Shown here one piece after another: positions 21,267-34,073 of a stretch of 64,000 nucleotides of DNA. The position numbers were made by a program, and so were the translations under genes. The stretch comes from Fimbriimonadaceae bacterium (GTDB taxonomy: Bacteria > Armatimonadota > Fimbriimonadia > Fimbriimonadales > Fimbriimonadaceae). Numbering within the stretch: the stretch's first letter is position 1; every line of letters begins with the position of its first letter. The notes under the pieces are model-generated. The model was given only the letters and a program-made list of their open reading frames with translations. It had not been told where the DNA came from and searched no databases. Location of the stretch: assembly GCA_020847855.1 (NCBI GenBank), contig JADLBH010000037.1:342368-406367 (forward strand), in the 5' to 3' direction.

Positions 21267-22635
21267 CTGGGCGGAGCCTCGGGCGCCACAAGAGGCCCAG
21301 CAGGACATAGATCAGCACGATCAGCCACTCTTGGGGCCGCGGGGTCTCGATGACGCTCCAGGGGAGCGCTGCGGTGCGGGTCACCACCAGCAGGATCCAG
21401 CCTGCCATGGGCTCCACCACGAGCTTGAGCAGACCGACCGACACTCCCAACCATAAGGTGGATACGCTCCACGCCGCCAGGCTCGCGACCACTGCGATCG
21501 CCACCGGGATCGCGATGAGGGCGTTGCTCAATGGGCCGACCAGGCTCACCGCCCCGAAATGGTAGGCGAGGAGGGGTGCCGAAGCGATGGTGGCCACGGC
21601 GCTCACTTGGGCCACCGCGAGCACAGGTCGTGCGACGTACTCGATCAAGGACTTCGCCCCACCGCCCAGCCTTGGGGCGAAGAGCACGAGCGCGGCCGTC
21701 GCGACATAGGAGAGCTGAAACCCGACATCGTCCATCGAGGACGGGCTCCACGCCAAGTACCCAAGACCGGAGGCAGCGATCGCCGAGGCACCGTCCGGCT
21801 CGCGTTGAAAGAGGTACGCGGCGAGGCCGATCCCCACCATCGCTACCGCTCGCACCATGGGCGGCCTGAACCCCGCCGCGGCCGAGTAGAGGATCAAGAC
21901 CAGCAGGAGCACGAGAAGTTTCAGCGGGCGAGCCAGGGGAACCTGATAGAGCGCGAAGGCCAAAGCGGTCGCCACGATCACGACGTGGAGCCCCGAGGTG
22001 CTCACGATGTGAACCGTGCCGCTTCGGCGAAGCTCCTCGTATTCCACCGGCGATATCCCAGAGGTGACGTTGAAGCACAGGGCGTTGACGATTCCGTTCG
22101 TCTCCGGTCTGCCATAGCTCGACGTGAGTCCGAGGAAGGAGTCCCTCAGGCGATCGCCCATGGCCCAGAGCCACGGCCCCTTCCGAACCCGCTCGATCGG
22201 TCGGGTAGGGCGAAGGATCGCCACGCCGCCCTGGGTGGAGAGCCGCGCTTGCTGGAAGGGCAATACTTCCGCTTGGAAGCGGATCTCGTCGCCCATCGAG
22301 AACCCCTCGTCCCGGCCCAGCCAGATCAGATATCTCCTCGTGCCAGATTCCACGATGGCGGAGTAGCCCTGAGAGGTCGGGCGGGCGGAGGTGAGCATCG
22401 TGGCCGTGCCCTCCAAGGTGCCCCCAGGCACGGTCACCATGGGCTCGACGGTGGGCCGGAGCCCTACCCCTAAGAGAAGCCCGACCGCCAGGGCGACCCA
22501 TGCCTTCGCCCGGTTCAGGAACGGGGCCAAGGCGACGACGTAGAACACGTTCGCCGGAGCGTGGGTGGAAGCGAGCCCACAAAGCATCGCGAGGAACGCG
22601 ATGACGAGGGGCCGCTCAGAGAGCTCTCGCCGCAT
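21256..22635 (-). CDS. comEC: ComEC/Rec2-family competence channel, short form
   Basis: GTVHIVSTSGLHVVIVATAL, LYSAAAGFRPPMVRAVAM, FQLSYVATAALVLFAP. Confidence 0.87.
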   Translation of the reverse strand: MRRELSERPLVIAFLAMLCGLASTHAPANVFYVVALAPFLNRAKAWVALAVGLLLGVGLRPTVEPMVTVPGGTLEGTATMLTSARPTSQGYSAIVESGTRRYLIWLGRDEGFSMGDEIRFQAEVLPFQQARLSTQGGVAILRPTRPIERVRKGPWLWAMGDRLRDSFLGLTSSYGRPETNGIVNALCFNVTSGISPVEYEELRRSGTVHIVSTSGLHVVIVATALAFALYQVPLARPLKLLVLLLVLILYSAAAGFRPPMVRAVAMVGIGLAAYLFQREPDGASAIAASGLGYLAWSPSSMDDVGFQLSYVATAALVLFAPRLGGGAKSLIEYVARPVLAVAQVSAVATIASAPLLAYHFGAVSLVGPLSNALIAIPVAIAVVASLAAWSVSTLWLGVSVGLLKLVVEPMAGWILLVVTRTAALPWSVIETPRPQEWLIVLIYVLLGLLWRPRLRPVSG

Positions 22636-22948
22636 CCGCGCCCTTCCGAACCGAACCGCAGTCGGCCTGGATCGTGACCCGGAGCTCTTGGAAGAGGCCG
22701 CGCTCGCCCGCTGCTTCGTTCAGCCGTTGAAGGATGCTCTCGCGGCGCAGCCTGATCTCTTGGGCCCAGACCGACGTGGTCACGGCGACCCAAAGGGTCC
22801 CGTGGTCGAAGCGGTCGGGAGCGGACCTCGCGGCGAGGATCTGACCCACCACCGACTCCCACCTTCTCGCTACGCGGAGGGCACGCGCCGCTCGAAGCAC
22901 GTCCGAGCGACCCAAAGCCTCGGGCAAGACCTCCGAAAGTTGCCTCAT
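22616..22948 (-). CDS. dciA: DUF721/DciA-like protein
   Basis: 110 aa; RVARRWESVVGQILAARSAPDRFDHGTLWVAVTTSVWAQEIRLRRESILQRLNE matches the DUF721 pattern. ATG overlaps the recF stop by 4 nt. Confidence 0.78.
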   Translation of the reverse strand: MRQLSEVLPEALGRSDVLRAARALRVARRWESVVGQILAARSAPDRFDHGTLWVAVTTSVWAQEIRLRRESILQRLNEAAGERGLFQELRVTIQADCGSVRKGADAARAL

Positions 22949-24051
22949 CGTGCTACCACCGTGCCGGAAGTTACCTCGAACGTCGCCGCTTCGCTCGCGA
23001 TCCGCGCTCCAGCCTGGCTGACTTCTGTACAGGTTACGAACACTTGTCCTCCACGTTCGTGGACAAGGCCGACGAGCGAGCCACGACGGTGGGAGTCCAG
23101 ATCCGAGAACACGTCGTCGAGCAAGAGGATCGGCCGCGCGCTCAGCTGCTGAGCGATCAGCTCGAGCACGGCCAGCTTGAGGGCGACCACGATCGTTCGC
23201 TTTTGCCCTTGGCTGGCAAAGTCGCGAGCGTCTTTCTCCTGGATCAGCACGGCAAGCTCGTCCCGGTGCGGACCGGTGCCGGTGCTGCCCCTCTCGCGAT
23301 CGGTTGACCGGGAAGATGCGAGGCGGTCGGCGATCTCGTCTGCCGAGCCAGCATCGTCTTTCACCTGAGAACGAATCGTGACCGCCTCCGATCCGCCTAG
23401 ATCGAGATAAGCGGCGCGGAAGCACGGCTCGAGGCTCGCCACCCATTCTGTCCGCCTCGCCCGGATCGCCTCGCCGTGCAGGGCAAGTTGCTCCTCCCAT
23501 GGCTCGAAGGTAGCTTCGGGCACGTGTTCCTCCCTCCAGAGGCGGAGCAGGGAGTTTCGTTGCTGGAGGGCCCGCTTGTAATCGGCGCACACCTTCACGA
23601 AGCTCGGGTGCAATTGCGAGGACTCAGAGTCCAGGAAGTGGCGTCGCTCTTCGGGCTCGCCCTCCAGGAGAAGGAGGCTCTCCGAGGTGAAACACACACA
23701 CGGGGCCTTGCCAAGGAGGTCGCTCGCCCGGCGTAGCGCCGAGCCGTTCAGGGTGAGCGTCTTCCGGCCTGACGCAGGCAGGTTCGCCTCGACCTCTTGG
23801 CCGTACGGTTCGAACTGGGTGCCCACCACGGCACACTCCGCCCCGTGCATGACCGCTTGGGCCTCTCTCCGACCTCGGATCAGTCTGCCCGTAGTCGTCA
23901 GGTGCACTGCCTCGATCAGGTTTGTCTTGCCTTGCCCGTTCGGCCCGACCACGAGGTTAACTCCCTCTCCGAAGCCGACCTCCGCGTGCCGATAGTTCCG
24001 AAAGCTATGGAGTCGGACCCTCGTCGCTCGAAAGCTCGGTCGGTTTCCCAC
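22945..24051 (-). CDS. recF: DNA replication/repair protein RecF
   Basis: LHSFRNYRHAEVGFGEGVNLVVGPNGQGKTNLIEAVHLTTTGR, TGPHRDEL, SQGQKRTIVVALKLAVLE, PILLLDDVFSDLD. Confidence 0.96.
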   Translation of the reverse strand: MGNRPSFRATRVRLHSFRNYRHAEVGFGEGVNLVVGPNGQGKTNLIEAVHLTTTGRLIRGRREAQAVMHGAECAVVGTQFEPYGQEVEANLPASGRKTLTLNGSALRRASDLLGKAPCVCFTSESLLLLEGEPEERRHFLDSESSQLHPSFVKVCADYKRALQQRNSLLRLWREEHVPEATFEPWEEQLALHGEAIRARRTEWVASLEPCFRAAYLDLGGSEAVTIRSQVKDDAGSADEIADRLASSRSTDRERGSTGTGPHRDELAVLIQEKDARDFASQGQKRTIVVALKLAVLELIAQQLSARPILLLDDVFSDLDSHRRGSLVGLVHERGGQVFVTCTEVSQAGARIASEAATFEVTSGTVVAR

Positions 24052-24057
24052 GCCTTC

Positions 24058-24300
24058 TATAAGAACAACCTCGAAGAATAGAAAAGTCTGTTACTACTGT
24101 TAGGGGGCGCTACGATTGTGGAAAACATGGAGGGCAAGGTAAGGGCGTACGCAAAATCAAGTTCAAATCGCACCATGTGACAATGTGGAAAACAATGTGT
24201 ATGAGTGCAGGGATAGGCCCCGAACTTACCCCCAGCGCGAAGCCTGCGATCGCAATTTCTTCGTTTTCCGCCACCTTTCACAGCAGGTTGTGAATAAGGC
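24058..24300. other. oriC: Candidate chromosomal replication origin (oriC)
   Basis: AT-richer intergenic region upstream of recF. DnaA-box matches on the minus strand: TTTTCCACA (24117-24125), TTTTCCACA (24184-24192), TTATTCACA (24289-24297), plus TCATACACA (24196-24204, one mismatch). Confidence 0.75.
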
Positions 24301-25024
24301 CGTACTTCATGACGACGGCCTCCATGTGGTAGATGGGGTGGACGTTGGGTGCAGGTTCGATGGCGTGAGCTTGTGCAAACGGCCTCCAAATCTCATGGAT
24401 GCCTTTGGCCTGGGTTTCCGGGAGCAGGTCAGGGAAACGGTCGCAAAGCCTCTTGAGCGCAAAGTATTCGGGCATCGTCATTCGATCGAGCGGCGGCAAG
24501 GTGTGCTCGATGGGATGAATCCCGGCGTGGTGCGGGGCCGGGACGAACCCGGAAGGTATCCCAGAGTCGGCGATGACCAGAGTGCCCGCCACAATGTCGC
24601 CAAGGCGCTGCCCCCGTGGGTTCGCCAAGATCACCCCGATGCCGAGGGCGTAGCCGATCGGGAGCATGTCCACGATCCTGAGTAGGTTCCGATAGGTTGC
24701 CGCCAGGAGGGTGGGAGGGGTGCCGTCCACCATGACCGTGCGCAGCCCGAGAGAGGTCTTCCCGATGGTTCTCCCTTGCCACAGCCACTCTTGGAGGACG
24801 AAGTACGCCACTAGGGTGGTCACGGCGAAGAGCCCTTCCACGGCAGAGCCCGCATCTGGCCCCGCGATCGCCGAGAAAGGCGCGGCGAGCAGCCCCGCGA
24901 CCCCACTGCAGGCAATCGCCAGGAAGCCGTCTATCGCATGGGCACCGACTCGGATCGGCAACGGGGCGAAGCGACGAACGACCACGACTTTCTCCGGCGT
25001 GAGGACGAAGTAGCTGCCTTGCAC
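24278..25024 (-). CDS. RDD family membrane protein
   Basis: PIRVGAHAIDGFLAIAC, WQGRTIGKTSLGLRTVMVDG, RNLLRIVDMLPIGYALGIGVILANPRGQRLGDIVAGTLVI. Confidence 0.88.
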   Translation of the reverse strand: MQGSYFVLTPEKVVVVRRFAPLPIRVGAHAIDGFLAIACSGVAGLLAAPFSAIAGPDAGSAVEGLFAVTTLVAYFVLQEWLWQGRTIGKTSLGLRTVMVDGTPPTLLAATYRNLLRIVDMLPIGYALGIGVILANPRGQRLGDIVAGTLVIADSGIPSGFVPAPHHAGIHPIEHTLPPLDRMTMPEYFALKRLCDRFPDLLPETQAKGIHEIWRPFAQAHAIEPAPNVHPIYHMEAVVMKYGLIHNLL

Positions 25025-29253: not shown

Positions 29254-31668
29254 CTAGACGAGGCTCACGGGGTCTACGTCGGCCACGATGCGCACCGTGC
29301 TCAGGCGGAGGGATTCTAGCACCGTGGCGATGGGGGCAAAGTCAGCTCCCGGCTCCAGCTTGAGGAGCGCGTGTCGTCGCCACTGTCCGTCCAATCGCGC
29401 CAAGGGGCAATCTGTCGGACCCAGTACCTCGCCTCGGGGCACGGCTCGTCTGAGTGCCTCGGCGACGCTCGCCGAGGCTGCGACGACCTCGGTGCGCTCG
29501 TTGCCAGAGACCACGACGTTCACGAGGCGGCGGAACGGTGGGTAGCCGGCTTCGCGGCGCTCCTGGATCTCGGCCTCGAAGAACCCCTCATAATCGTGCG
29601 CCCTCGCACAGACGATTGCCACGTGGTTTGGCTGGAACGTCTGGATCAGGACACGGCCTGGCCTTTTGGCCCGTCCCGCCCGTCCGCCCACTTGCGACAG
29701 GAGTTGGAAGGTCCGTTCCGAGGCCCGAAAGTCAGGGACGTGGAGCGAGACGTCCGCCGCGACCGCACCCACGAGGGTCACATTGGGGAAATCGAGGCCC
29801 TTGGCGACGAGCTGCGTGCCGACGAGGATATCGGTCGCTCCGGCGCGGAACGAGGCAAGCACCTCTTCCAAGGCACCGGATCTGCGGGCCACGTCACGGT
29901 CGAGCCGGGCGATCCGCGCTTGGGGGAAGAGTTCGGTCAAGCACTCTTCCAGCCTCTGCACACCGACCCCGAATCCCGCAACGCGCTGGCTCTCGCACTC
30001 TGGACAGTTGGCGGGCGCGCGCTCCGAGTGGGTGCAGTGATGACATCGCAGCTGGCCCGCCTGGCGATGATAGGCGAGCGCCACGGTGCAACGAGGGCAC
30101 TCCCAGCAATGACCGCACTCCCTGCACTTGAGCACGGGAGCATAGGCGCGCCGGTTCAAGAACAGGATCGCCTGCTCCCTTCTCTCCAAAGTGGACGCGA
30201 TCTCCGCCTGCAGGCGCTCGGAGACCAGGGCGGGCTTGCGTGCGCGGAAAAGCTCGGCGAGATCGAGGGTTTCCACCGTAGGGAGGGTTGCCGCGGCTGC
30301 ACGGCTTGGCAGGCGGAGCATAGCGAGCTCGCCCGTTTTTGCGCGGTGGAACGTCTCGATGCTCGGGGTCGCAGAGCCGAAGACCACTGGGCAACCGTGT
30401 CGGCGGCCATGAGACTCGGCCAGGGGCCCGGTCGAGTATCGGGGGGGGGACTCTTGCTTGAAGCTACCTTCGTGCTCCTCGTCAATCACGATCAGGCCGA
30501 TGTCCTCGAGCGGGGCAAAGAGCGCCGAGCGCGCACCTAGGACGACGGACCTTCGCATCTGTCGGATGGCTGTCCAGCTTTCGAGGCGCTCGCGAGCGGA
30601 AAGGTTCGAGTGGAGCATTGCGACCCGGTCGCCAAACCTCGCTCGTAAACGGGTAAGGGTTTGGGCGGTGAGTGCGATCTCGGGTACGAGGTAGAGCACG
30701 CCTCGCCCCATTTTCAGGGCTTCGGCCATGCATCGCATATAGACCTCGGTCTTGCCCGAGCCGGTCACGCCGAAGAGAAGAAACTTCTCGGGTCGGCGTT
30801 CGCAGACCGCCTTGGTGACTGCCTCGATGGCCGCGTCCTGATCGGGGTTCGGCTTGGGTGCGGGCAGCATCGAGGAGGCATCCTCGCCGCCAGCGACGAG
30901 CACACCGGCATCGAGCAAGGCTTGCACGGTGACGTCGGATACTCCCGCGAGCGCCCTGATCTCCCGCGTCGGAAGTGCGCTCGTGCCAAGGCCCTGGAGC
31001 CTCATGACGGTGACGGCTTGTGCGGGCCGCTTGCGGCCAGGCCCTGCCAGGAAGCGCTCCACGACCGAAGGGTCCGGGTTCAATGCGACCATCTGCTCTC
31101 CGGACCGGCGGTCGGACCAACGCCGCAGTTCGAGGCCGCGTTCTGCGAGCCCTTTCCTCGCCAGGGTACGGAGGGCGCGCTTCATCGGGTCGGCGATCGA
31201 GCTTCCCGCCCCCTCATAGAGGATCCCCCGCTCCTGGAGCAGCTTGAGTGCCTCGGCCTGTCGCCCAGGGAGCGGCCCCGTCACCGCACTGCCGGGGCGC
31301 CACGTGACTGCCAGCCGCTCCCGAATGCCTGGAGGCGCCGCAGCGGAGAGCGCGGAGGGGAGGGGGGACAGGGTCTGCCTTGCGGTCTCCTCGATGAGGT
31401 CCATCAGGGCTTCGGGAAGGTCGAGGCCACGGATCGGCTCGGTAAGGGGACGTAGCCGCGCCGGATCGAAGCCCAATTCTTCAGGCGAGGCCGAGCGAAC
31501 CCCGAGGATGTAGCCGATCGCCCTGCGCCCGCCCAGGGGCACGATCCACGCCTCCCCTCTGCGAGCTTCAGGTGGGGCGGCATATGTGTAGCTGGCCGTG
31601 GCCCCGGCGTCCTTGGCACTTATGACGACATCGGCCACAAGAAGGGTCGCGGACGTGGTCGTGCTCAC
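29254..31668 (-). CDS. priA: Primosomal protein N' (PriA helicase)
   Basis: FLLFGVTGSGKTEVYMRCMAEAL, LIVIDEEHEGSFKQ, CRECGHCWECPRCTVALAYHRQAGQLRCHHC zinc motifs, ILVGTQLVAKGLDFPNVTLVG. GTG start at 31668; upstream extension of the listed ORF is spurious. Confidence 0.95.
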   Translation of the reverse strand: MSTTTSATLLVADVVISAKDAGATASYTYAAPPEARRGEAWIVPLGGRRAIGYILGVRSASPEELGFDPARLRPLTEPIRGLDLPEALMDLIEETARQTLSPLPSALSAAAPPGIRERLAVTWRPGSAVTGPLPGRQAEALKLLQERGILYEGAGSSIADPMKRALRTLARKGLAERGLELRRWSDRRSGEQMVALNPDPSVVERFLAGPGRKRPAQAVTVMRLQGLGTSALPTREIRALAGVSDVTVQALLDAGVLVAGGEDASSMLPAPKPNPDQDAAIEAVTKAVCERRPEKFLLFGVTGSGKTEVYMRCMAEALKMGRGVLYLVPEIALTAQTLTRLRARFGDRVAMLHSNLSARERLESWTAIRQMRRSVVLGARSALFAPLEDIGLIVIDEEHEGSFKQESPPRYSTGPLAESHGRRHGCPVVFGSATPSIETFHRAKTGELAMLRLPSRAAAATLPTVETLDLAELFRARKPALVSERLQAEIASTLERREQAILFLNRRAYAPVLKCRECGHCWECPRCTVALAYHRQAGQLRCHHCTHSERAPANCPECESQRVAGFGVGVQRLEECLTELFPQARIARLDRDVARRSGALEEVLASFRAGATDILVGTQLVAKGLDFPNVTLVGAVAADVSLHVPDFRASERTFQLLSQVGGRAGRAKRPGRVLIQTFQPNHVAIVCARAHDYEGFFEAEIQERREAGYPPFRRLVNVVVSGNERTEVVAASASVAEALRRAVPRGEVLGPTDCPLARLDGQWRRHALLKLEPGADFAPIATVLESLRLSTVRIVADVDPVSLV

Positions 31669-34073
31669 GCTTTTGCCGCCGAAAACTTGAGCCGGGTCAG
31701 CCAACGGATTTGGAACACGGTAAAGCCGACCAGGATCGCACCCATCACCCATGCGGCGGCGGTGGCATAGCCGAACTTTAGGAACATGAACGCGTTCTGC
31801 CAAACCTCGAGCCCGATGGTGTGCGTCGCGTAAAGCGGCCCCCCTCCGGTTAGCACAAAGACGTTCTCCATGGCCTTGAAGCCGCCGATGAACACTCCCA
31901 AGAGGTTGATCAGCATCAAGGGTTTGATCCCTGGGAGCAGGACATACCGCAGTTTGTGCACCCAGCTCGCCCCGTCCAGGTCGGCGGCCTCGTACCTCTC
32001 GTCCGGGATGTTCTTGAGGGCGGCGAGATAGAGGACCGAGCCGGGCCCGGCAGCGGCCCAGATCCCTGGGAGGACGACGGCGAAGAGCGCGAGCTGCGGG
32101 TTGCCAAGCCAGTCGTTCGAGTCCGTGAGGATAGGCCCGCCGAATCGGGCGAAGAGTGGGTTGAGGAAGGGAACGAAGGGCTGGACCACGTGGTTCAGGA
32201 GCCCTTCCGGCCCTTTGTCGTAGAACTGCCTCCAGAGGAATGCGATCACCGCGCCGGAGATGGTCGCCGGGAGGTAGAAGAGCGTCCGAAGCAACACCCG
32301 CGCGTATCGGATCTCGTTCAGCACGACCGCGAGCCCGACGGGAAGCAGGAAACCGATACTGATGGTGAGAACGACGTAGAGCGTGCTGTTGAGAAGCGCC
32401 TTCCAGAAGACGGGCTGGCTGAAGACCGAGATGAAGTTGTCGAAGCCGACCCAGGTCGCACCTAGTACGATCTTGTAGTCTTGGAAGGCGATCTGGAGTC
32501 CCTTCCCAAGTGGATAGTAGGCCCAGACCATGAGGGTGAGCACGGCAGGCAAGAGGCAGATCCAAACGAAGGTGAGCGCGGTTCGTCTCCGATCTCCCTT
32601 GGGTAGAGGGTCGTAGGCAGGGGCGGACGTTCGCGCCTTACGCACGGAGACGCCGACCACCGTCGCTACGAGCGCGGCAAGGATCCACGCTATCCAGGTC
32701 GCAACCTGTCGCTGCTTTCGGATGACCTGCTCGGGGACATAGCCGAGTAGCTTTTGGTCCATGGACTCTTGGACCTCTCGTAGGATCACGTCGCTCGGGG
32801 TGTCTTCCAGGCGTGCGCGGTCGAGCGCCTCGTCCAAGACGACATAGACCTGCTGGCTGTTTCTCCCGTAGGGCTCCGGCTTGCCACGGGAGAAGAGTTG
32901 CCGGTTCGCCTCCAAGTAGGCTGGATCCACACTGGCGGCAAGGTCGTGGTATCCATACCTCTCGAGCAAGACCGGGTTTACGAGCGAGGCGAGGCCAAGC
33001 TCGACGAGAGTGTGCGTCTGAACCTCGGCTGCGTCTTGACTCGCAAAGTACTCGATGAACCGCCAACACGCCTCGATCTTGGCTGGGTCCTTGACGGCCG
33101 AGTTGATCGCCCACATTCCGGCGTTGATCTCGTTGTAGCTCCCGGCCGGGCCTGCCGGCATCGCCGCGACACCGATCAGGGCGGGGTTGATGTCGCTGAT
33201 CGAGAGCATGACGTCGTTCGTGTAGGCGAACCACATCGAGACCTTGCCGTCCGTGATGTCGTTGTTGTACGTCGCGCTGACGCTGGCGGCGGGCCCGTGC
33301 TCCTTGCCGTCCTTCCCGACCCACTTGTCCTTGGTGAGCTTTCGGAAGAAGTCGAGGGCGACCGCCCCGGCAGGGCTTGCGACCACCGCACGGGAATATC
33401 CTCGCTCGGCTGGGACCAGGACCTCGCCTCCGGCCTGCCACACGAAGTTCGTCCAGTGGTACGCCTTCCCGCCGGGCCCACCACTGAAGGCGAAGCCCGA
33501 TCTGCCGGGCGCGGCATCGGTGAGCTTCTTGGCATCCTCGTAGAACTCTGCCCAGGTTCGCGGGGGCCGTTGCGGGTCGAGTCCGGCCTCGACAAAGTGG
33601 TCTTTGCGGTAGTAGAGCGCCTGGGCGACTTGATAGAACGGGACGCCGTAGAGGTGGCCGTCCAGGCTGCGCAAGACCGTCTCGATCTCGGGGACGATGC
33701 GCGAAGTGGCGTCCGGGTGACGCGATGCCAGGTCGTCGAGGGGTCGGCAGAACCCTTGCTCGACGTAGCTGAAGTATTGGCGGAAGTTGACATAGAAAAC
33801 GTCGGGTGCGGTGTCGCCCGCCATGGACATGAGGAAGTTGCCGTCCGCCTTGTCCCCGGTGAGTTCGAGCCCCCCGGCGTTCACGACCTGGATGTCCGGG
33901 TTCCGCCGGTGGAACTCGTCGAACACCGCCCGGCGCGTGATGTTCCGGGGAGCCGTGGAGTCTCTGGGAGGGATCCCGAAGGCCGGGCCCGCCATCATCC
34001 GTATCGTCGTTCGCTGGGCGACCGCGGACGCGGCGATGAGCCCACAGACGACGAGCGCGAGGCCACGTACCAC
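31665..34073 (-). CDS. Fusion of extracellular solute-binding protein (family 1) and MalF-type ABC permease
   Basis: Signal peptide, SBP region (GDTAPDVFYVNFRQYFSYVEQGFCRPLDDL...GVPFYQVAQALYYRKDHF), then permease TMs with AALKNIPDERYEAADLDGASWVHKLRYVLLPGIKP (EAA motif). GTG at 34073 chosen because the upstream extension is not coding-like. Confidence 0.88.
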   Translation of the reverse strand: MVRGLALVVCGLIAASAVAQRTTIRMMAGPAFGIPPRDSTAPRNITRRAVFDEFHRRNPDIQVVNAGGLELTGDKADGNFLMSMAGDTAPDVFYVNFRQYFSYVEQGFCRPLDDLASRHPDATSRIVPEIETVLRSLDGHLYGVPFYQVAQALYYRKDHFVEAGLDPQRPPRTWAEFYEDAKKLTDAAPGRSGFAFSGGPGGKAYHWTNFVWQAGGEVLVPAERGYSRAVVASPAGAVALDFFRKLTKDKWVGKDGKEHGPAASVSATYNNDITDGKVSMWFAYTNDVMLSISDINPALIGVAAMPAGPAGSYNEINAGMWAINSAVKDPAKIEACWRFIEYFASQDAAEVQTHTLVELGLASLVNPVLLERYGYHDLAASVDPAYLEANRQLFSRGKPEPYGRNSQQVYVVLDEALDRARLEDTPSDVILREVQESMDQKLLGYVPEQVIRKQRQVATWIAWILAALVATVVGVSVRKARTSAPAYDPLPKGDRRRTALTFVWICLLPAVLTLMVWAYYPLGKGLQIAFQDYKIVLGATWVGFDNFISVFSQPVFWKALLNSTLYVVLTISIGFLLPVGLAVVLNEIRYARVLLRTLFYLPATISGAVIAFLWRQFYDKGPEGLLNHVVQPFVPFLNPLFARFGGPILTDSNDWLGNPQLALFAVVLPGIWAAAGPGSVLYLAALKNIPDERYEAADLDGASWVHKLRYVLLPGIKPLMLINLLGVFIGGFKAMENVFVLTGGGPLYATHTIGLEVWQNAFMFLKFGYATAAAWVMGAILVGFTVFQIRWLTRLKFSAAKA

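Follow-up and report, generated by a model that had tools for sequence, protein, structure and literature searches.

A predicted chromosomal replication origin upstream of recF, conserved across a class of Armatimonadota

Introduction

Bacterial replication origins combine DnaA boxes with a site of DNA unwinding, as in the BUS modules of Bacillus subtilis and Helicobacter pylori. One published criterion for a BUS is a DnaA box with three or more NAN triplets no further than 16 bp away (PMC8287927). Relative to the boxes, the DnaA-trios of B. subtilis (3'-GAT-5') occupy the strand opposite to that of the tract that we describe below (PMC10201434), those of H. pylori include the triplets TAA, CAG and TAG (PMC10316083), and reversing trio polarity inhibits unwinding in H. 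pylori (PMC8235120). Distal boxes in B. subtilis act with helical phasing (PMC6669920), and the helicase operator gene dciA adjoins recF in many phyla (PMC5109545). Within the Armatimonadota, the origin of Fimbriimonas ginsengisoli, the best-known species of the group studied here, has been placed at 5.13 Mb, near dnaA, from a jagged skew, with a possible terminus at 4.39 Mb (PMC4072686).

Here, we analyze a 64-kb stretch of DNA (the window; G000:C37:342368-406367) from the 41-contig, 2.53-Mb assembly of an armatimonad MAG. We predict, with a probability of about 0.9, that positions 24042-24208 of the window contain the chromosomal oriC of this organism. An earlier reading of the same DNA (the original prediction) had proposed a probable oriC upstream of recF, and this proposal is supported by strand skew, by conservation across the class and by the lack of a DnaA-box cluster at dnaA.

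Results

The predicted origin lies in a 226-bp gap between recF and a gene for an RDD-family membrane protein (Table 1). Downstream, dciA shares 4 bp with the 3' end of recF, and the closest named RecF, from an Armatimonadetes MAG, shares 49% identity with that of the host. As the original prediction noted, dnaA and dnaN are both absent from the window: dnaA is 228 kb away on the same contig, and dnaN is on another contig. The host DnaA keeps the sequence RDHTS, which resembles RDHTT, the motif with which other DnaA proteins recognize their boxes. Neither an Rfam nor a tRNA scan of the 64-kb window gave a match. The primosomal helicase gene priA (29254-32565) lies about 5 kb from the predicted origin.

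Table 1. Features of the predicted origin and its neighboring genes, in window coordinates
Feature	Position	Strand	Remarks
Conserved origin element (predicted; 199-position model R1)	24043..24208	-	68.7 bits, E 5.9e-20 (set of loci)
Distal-pair upstream DnaA box TCATACACA	24196..24204	-	one mismatch; box-like in most relatives
Distal-pair second DnaA box TTTTCCACA	24184..24192	-	exact match
TTTGAAC motif	24161..24167	-	conserved; between box pair and DUE-proximal box
DUE-proximal R1-like DnaA box TTTTCCACA	24117..24125	-	exact match
Triplet tract TAACAGTAGTAACAG	24088..24102	-	5'-NAR-3' x5 on box strand
Predicted AT-rich unwinding region	24053..24103	.	66% AT in 50 bp, tied AT-richest of window
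Weak inverted DnaA box over recF start codon	24042..24053	+	minus strand GCGTGGGAAACC
recF	22945..24051	-	SMC_N/RecF domain; full-length relatives adjoin element
dciA (helicase operator, DUF721)	22616..22948	-	PF05258, E 6e-18
RDD-family membrane protein gene	24278..25024	-	gene end is left border of predicted origin; contains TTATTCACA

The exact DnaA-box pattern TTWTNCACA occurs three times in the window, each time at the recF–RDD locus, where 0.58 matches (sd 0.79) are expected in the whole 64 kb. Across the assembly there are 23 such matches, and at this locus alone do three fall within 200 bp, forming a unique cluster denser than chance. Two of the three lie in the gap itself, and the third, TTATTCACA (24289-24297), lies just inside the RDD gene. 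The original prediction had placed these three and the single-mismatch box correctly, and all four do share one orientation, on the minus strand. Its inclusion of TTATTCACA as an origin box did not hold up: the match encodes part of a conserved C-terminus of the RDD protein without being conserved as a box, and we therefore reject it as a functional site and regard it as probably a coding coincidence. Two exact boxes are convincing, a small number that counts against the oriC reading. The cluster adjoins an AT-rich region, in keeping with the earlier description of an AT-richer gap: the AT-richest 50-bp segments of the 64 kb start at 24052-24055 and at 24153, and the AT-richest 300-bp segments are also found here (50% AT from 24045, against a mean of 35%).

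Boxes and a triplet tract are common to the recF-upstream regions of about 30 relatives, most of which belong to separate genera with few exceptions, and from an alignment (A3) of 24 such regions we built a sequence-only model, R1. Searched against the 2.53-Mb assembly, model R1 gives a single match (E 6.1e-19), to a sequence that is itself one of the 24 rows from which the model was built. This match redraws the borders originally given as 24058-24300; the locus was right, and the conserved element extends past 24058 to the recF start and ends at 24208. The original list of boxes had also overlooked two components, the triplet tract and a weak inverted box. Read toward recF, the element consists of the box pair, a segment containing TTTGAAC, the DUE-proximal box, a spacer, a TAA(NAR)n tract, the AT-rich stretch and the weak inverted box at recF. 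The single-mismatch box, 12 bp from its neighbor, is conserved as the outer member of the pair; the TTTGAAC motif may be a site for a bending protein or for DnaA assembly; and GGGGAAAA/TGTGGATAA-like words of the inverted box are kept also where they are non-coding (G005, G024, L229, L230). The spacer between the R1-like box and the triplet tract measures 12-14 bp in all 48 aligned sequences.

At E<=0.05, model R1 has a match in 91 of the class's 113 genomes. Of 292 genomes from the phylum, 77 are matched at E<=0.001, and 72 of these belong to the class. We compared the coordinates of two tables by eye for 36 genomes, and in every one of them the best match abuts recF. Two reduced, 1.5-Mb genomes carry the element directly before dciA and seem to be without recF, with no RecF found in one (G028) and no recF beside the element in the other (G093). 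Against the oriC reading, genus g37 of a sister family has no boxes before recF, and its origin may have moved again. Clustered box-pair matches occur elsewhere in a genome of this genus, which is without boxes at recF and dnaA (G041:C1:2138827-2138895). A genome of a sister family (G045) has nine TTATCCACA boxes upstream of recF (L185:2454-2759), seven of them in about 100 bp and mostly in 11-12-bp steps, in what would be a much denser recF-linked origin.

The distance from the distal pair to the proximal box varies among relatives in whole helical turns, with values of 36, 46-47, 55-58, 65-67, 75-78 and 87-90 bp; in this window it is 67 bp, or about six turns. Two distances, 70 and 83, fall off this ladder, both in weak matches. 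The 10-11-bp phasing persists when the common 88 class is left out (p 0.0009), in nearly the same phase as that class, for spacings taken from a model-fitted alignment of genera that are not independent, in a set chosen by hand by merging near-identical relatives and dropping sequences with no recognizable boxes. Such phasing is compatible with IHF-bent DNA, as in an E. coli-type origin, between the R1-like box and the further boxes.

The original prediction had named cumulative GC skew and a rival box cluster beside dnaA as its critical tests, and neither spoke against it. We computed skews from contig C37 and from sampled stretches of relatives (20 places per complete relative). On C37 the cumulative GC-skew minimum is at 353,617, with the curve rising beyond; the element, at 366.5 kb, is 12.9 kb from this minimum and dnaA is 215 kb from it, and the breakpoint beats all 5000 permutations (p<1/5000). 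With only 40 kb of the contig on the far side of the element, these data cover very little of the right arm of this genome. In G018 and G031, the best skew origins (880-1020 kb and 1670-1820 kb) bracket the element (931 kb and 1714 kb) and exclude dnaA (68 kb and 817 kb). In G010 the best interval, 410-540 kb, brackets the element at 459 kb, with dnaA at 298 kb fitting equally well, and in G094 strand-biased 11-mers agree with the element within 1.8 lnL. Two genomes do not fit cleanly and count against the oriC reading. In G007, the best skew origin is at 2.48-2.61 Mb, compared with 2.22 Mb for the element and 2.66 Mb for dnaA. The two measures conflict in G032, where the element at 1.30 Mb has the GC-skew interval (0.93-1.05 Mb) on one side and the switch in 11-mers (1.38-1.74 Mb) on the other. 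Rearrangement possibly lies behind both misfits.

No box cluster was found beside dnaA in the host or in 14 relatives: each side of dnaA has at most one exact box in these 15 genomes, and we therefore reject a dnaA-linked origin. A single TTATACACA does occur upstream of dnaA, in reverse orientation and at near-constant distance, in three genera (L001:1069, L065:1087, L070:1075), and is possibly a site of dnaA autoregulation. G005 and G007 contain pairs of TTATCCACA boxes separated by 111-114 bp, which we also rejected as rival origins; they resemble a repeated mobile element. In each of three near-identical copies (L178, G007:C1:2392660-2392782; L179, G005:C1:354449-354568; L180, G005:C3:522176-522296), two such boxes follow the end of a reading frame of helix-turn-helix-like type, an arrangement resembling a mobile element that carries a DnaA-dependent origin of its own.

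In F. ginsengisoli (G062, 5,231,762 bp), the element is found at 1,929,626-1,929,821 (E 1.7e-18), the position at which recF has been placed (PMC4072686). We assessed replication polarity in this genome from strand-biased 11-mers, with a fit that assumed arms of 30-70% of the chromosome. The 90 copies of GGGNAGGGNGG are distributed 29+/14- within 1.93-4.39 Mb and 14+/33- elsewhere (Fisher p 0.0006). In the best fit, replication begins at 1.84 Mb (0.78-2.26) and ends at 4.22-4.46 Mb. Placing the origin at the element costs no more than 0.85 lnL relative to this optimum, and an origin at dnaA, at dnaN or at 5.13 Mb gives the wrong strand polarity. Our analysis therefore agrees with the published terminus of about 4.39 Mb and differs from the published origin (PMC4072686), which the element and the strand switch together place at about 1.93 Mb instead of 5.13 Mb. 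The resulting arms, 2.46 and 2.77 Mb, are close to equal.

The triplet tract agrees with the consensus for DnaA-trios, and 22-28 of 29 sequences have its middle A; runs of 5-7 NAR units are common, against 1-3 for YTN. A box 12-14 bp from up to seven NAR units falls within the published spacing of a BUS, but the tract is on the box strand, the wrong polarity for canonical trios; we reject that reading and do not file the element as a B. subtilis-type BUS, because there the trio strand is opposite. The origin could still lie here with DnaA engaging the A-rich 5'-NAR-3' triplets on the TTTTCCACA strand, or loading from the inverted recF box across the AT-rich stretch. The trio consensus, the long NAR runs and the triplets TAA, CAG and TAG shared with H. 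pylori (PMC10316083) speak for this arrangement, which we nevertheless consider unlikely: in B. subtilis it is the other strand that carries the trios (PMC10201434), reversed polarity inhibited unwinding in H. pylori (PMC8235120), and a reading modeled on Escherichia coli requires no new mechanism. The E. coli R1 strand reads TTATCCACA-GGGCAGTGCGATCC-TAATAAGAG, with 14 nt between box and word, the same geometry as the class element. The class consensus likewise has an R1-like box pointing toward the DUE, about 13 bp of spacer and TTATT on the opposite strand; in this window the opposite strand of TAACAGTAGTAACAG reads CTGTTACTACTGTTA, a variant of TTATT in place of the E. coli TTATTAG strand. 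We favor the E. coli-like reading, with DnaA on the T-rich strand, because the R1 strand has the class-consensus word at the same distance. NAR triplets on the DnaA-box strand are also seen in Clostridial dnaA-dnaN gaps (L025:4692-4730, L031:4815-4845, L032:4718-4760; for example, TAAGAAGAACACGAAGAA), some of them overlapped by TATAAT promoter elements, and same-strand tracts may extend more widely than this class.

Discussion

Our calculations cover the elements of this locus, their conservation, helical phasing and unique position, and their coincidence with strand-asymmetry switches; from these we infer how DnaA might bind, where DNA might melt, which strand might be held and what DciA might do. 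We propose that DnaA would bind the DUE-proximal TTTTCCACA box together with the pair of boxes 12 bp apart and 67 bp further out, and that bent or looped DNA would bring the proximal box and distal pair face to face. The AT-rich stretch would then melt beyond the proximal box, beginning 14 bp away at the TAA(NAR)n tract, and DnaA would hold one of the two strands, which the E. coli analogy suggests is the T-rich one. DnaB would subsequently be loaded, probably by DciA, encoded beside the origin. That the class as a whole shares a distinct origin type, unwinding from a box-strand trinucleotide tract of polarity opposite to that of B. subtilis and holding its distal pair in register by whole turns, is a tentative idea that we think doubtful.

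DnaA boxes are known from promoters, and the boxes could instead belong to a DnaA-regulated recF-dciA promoter, serving transcription alone while replication starts elsewhere. The element does stop right where recF begins, and several relatives have a single box ahead of dnaA. We find this explanation highly improbable: the element persists directly before dciA where recF seems gone, and is therefore not merely a recF promoter; it is the sole such cluster and sits at skew minima hundreds of kb from dnaA; and the triplet tract, AT-rich stretch and 12-14-bp spacing exceed what a promoter needs. To a DnaA-titrating or -reactivating site like datA or DARS, with replication really starting near dnaA or at an unmarked place, we give next to no credence despite the few exact boxes and a G007 skew minimum closer to dnaA, as dnaA flanks have at most one exact box per side, an origin at dnaA gives F. 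ginsengisoli the wrong strand polarity, and datA and DARS are not known to be unwinding sites with an R1/13-mer-like module.

If the recF-upstream site is the origin, its location provides a position rule for an Armatimonadota class of which few members have been cultured, and the origin published for F. ginsengisoli is corrected, so that growth-rate estimates from read coverage and analyses of replication strands can be redone there. In the open-access literature we found no paper on a recF-linked origin in this phylum, and both the location rule and the spacing ladder appear to be undescribed in the literature searched. The class also makes available a single origin in dozens of natural versions: the whole-turn ladder offers a way to test how distal boxes work, and the strand on which the tract lies a way to test whether the TTATT motifs of E. 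coli and DnaA-trios are one thing.

The predicted origin has its closest counterpart in E. coli oriC, where the module of box, spacer and TAATAAGA corresponds to R1 and 13-mer R, the box and TAATAAGA lying 14 nt apart on one strand. In both, the DUE-proximal box points at the DUE, further boxes are set back across a possibly bent region, and the origin is not beside dnaA. The two differ in that E. coli has GATC-bearing 13-mers where the class has a triplet tract of up to 5-7 units, and that E. coli oriC adjoins mnmG-mioC, whereas the class element adjoins recF-dciA and has far fewer boxes. With the BUS of B. subtilis and H. pylori it shares a box, a short spacer (GC in those species), a trinucleotide tract and an AT-rich stretch, and with B. 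subtilis a distal box, whose activity in that species is helically phased (PMC6669920), but in a BUS the trinucleotide tract and the box have the reverse strand relationship (PMC10201434). Compared with the canonical dnaA-dnaN-recF-dciA-gyrB cluster, the locus keeps the recF-dciA order beside the origin, while dnaA and dnaN lie elsewhere and the predicted origin is immediately upstream of recF.
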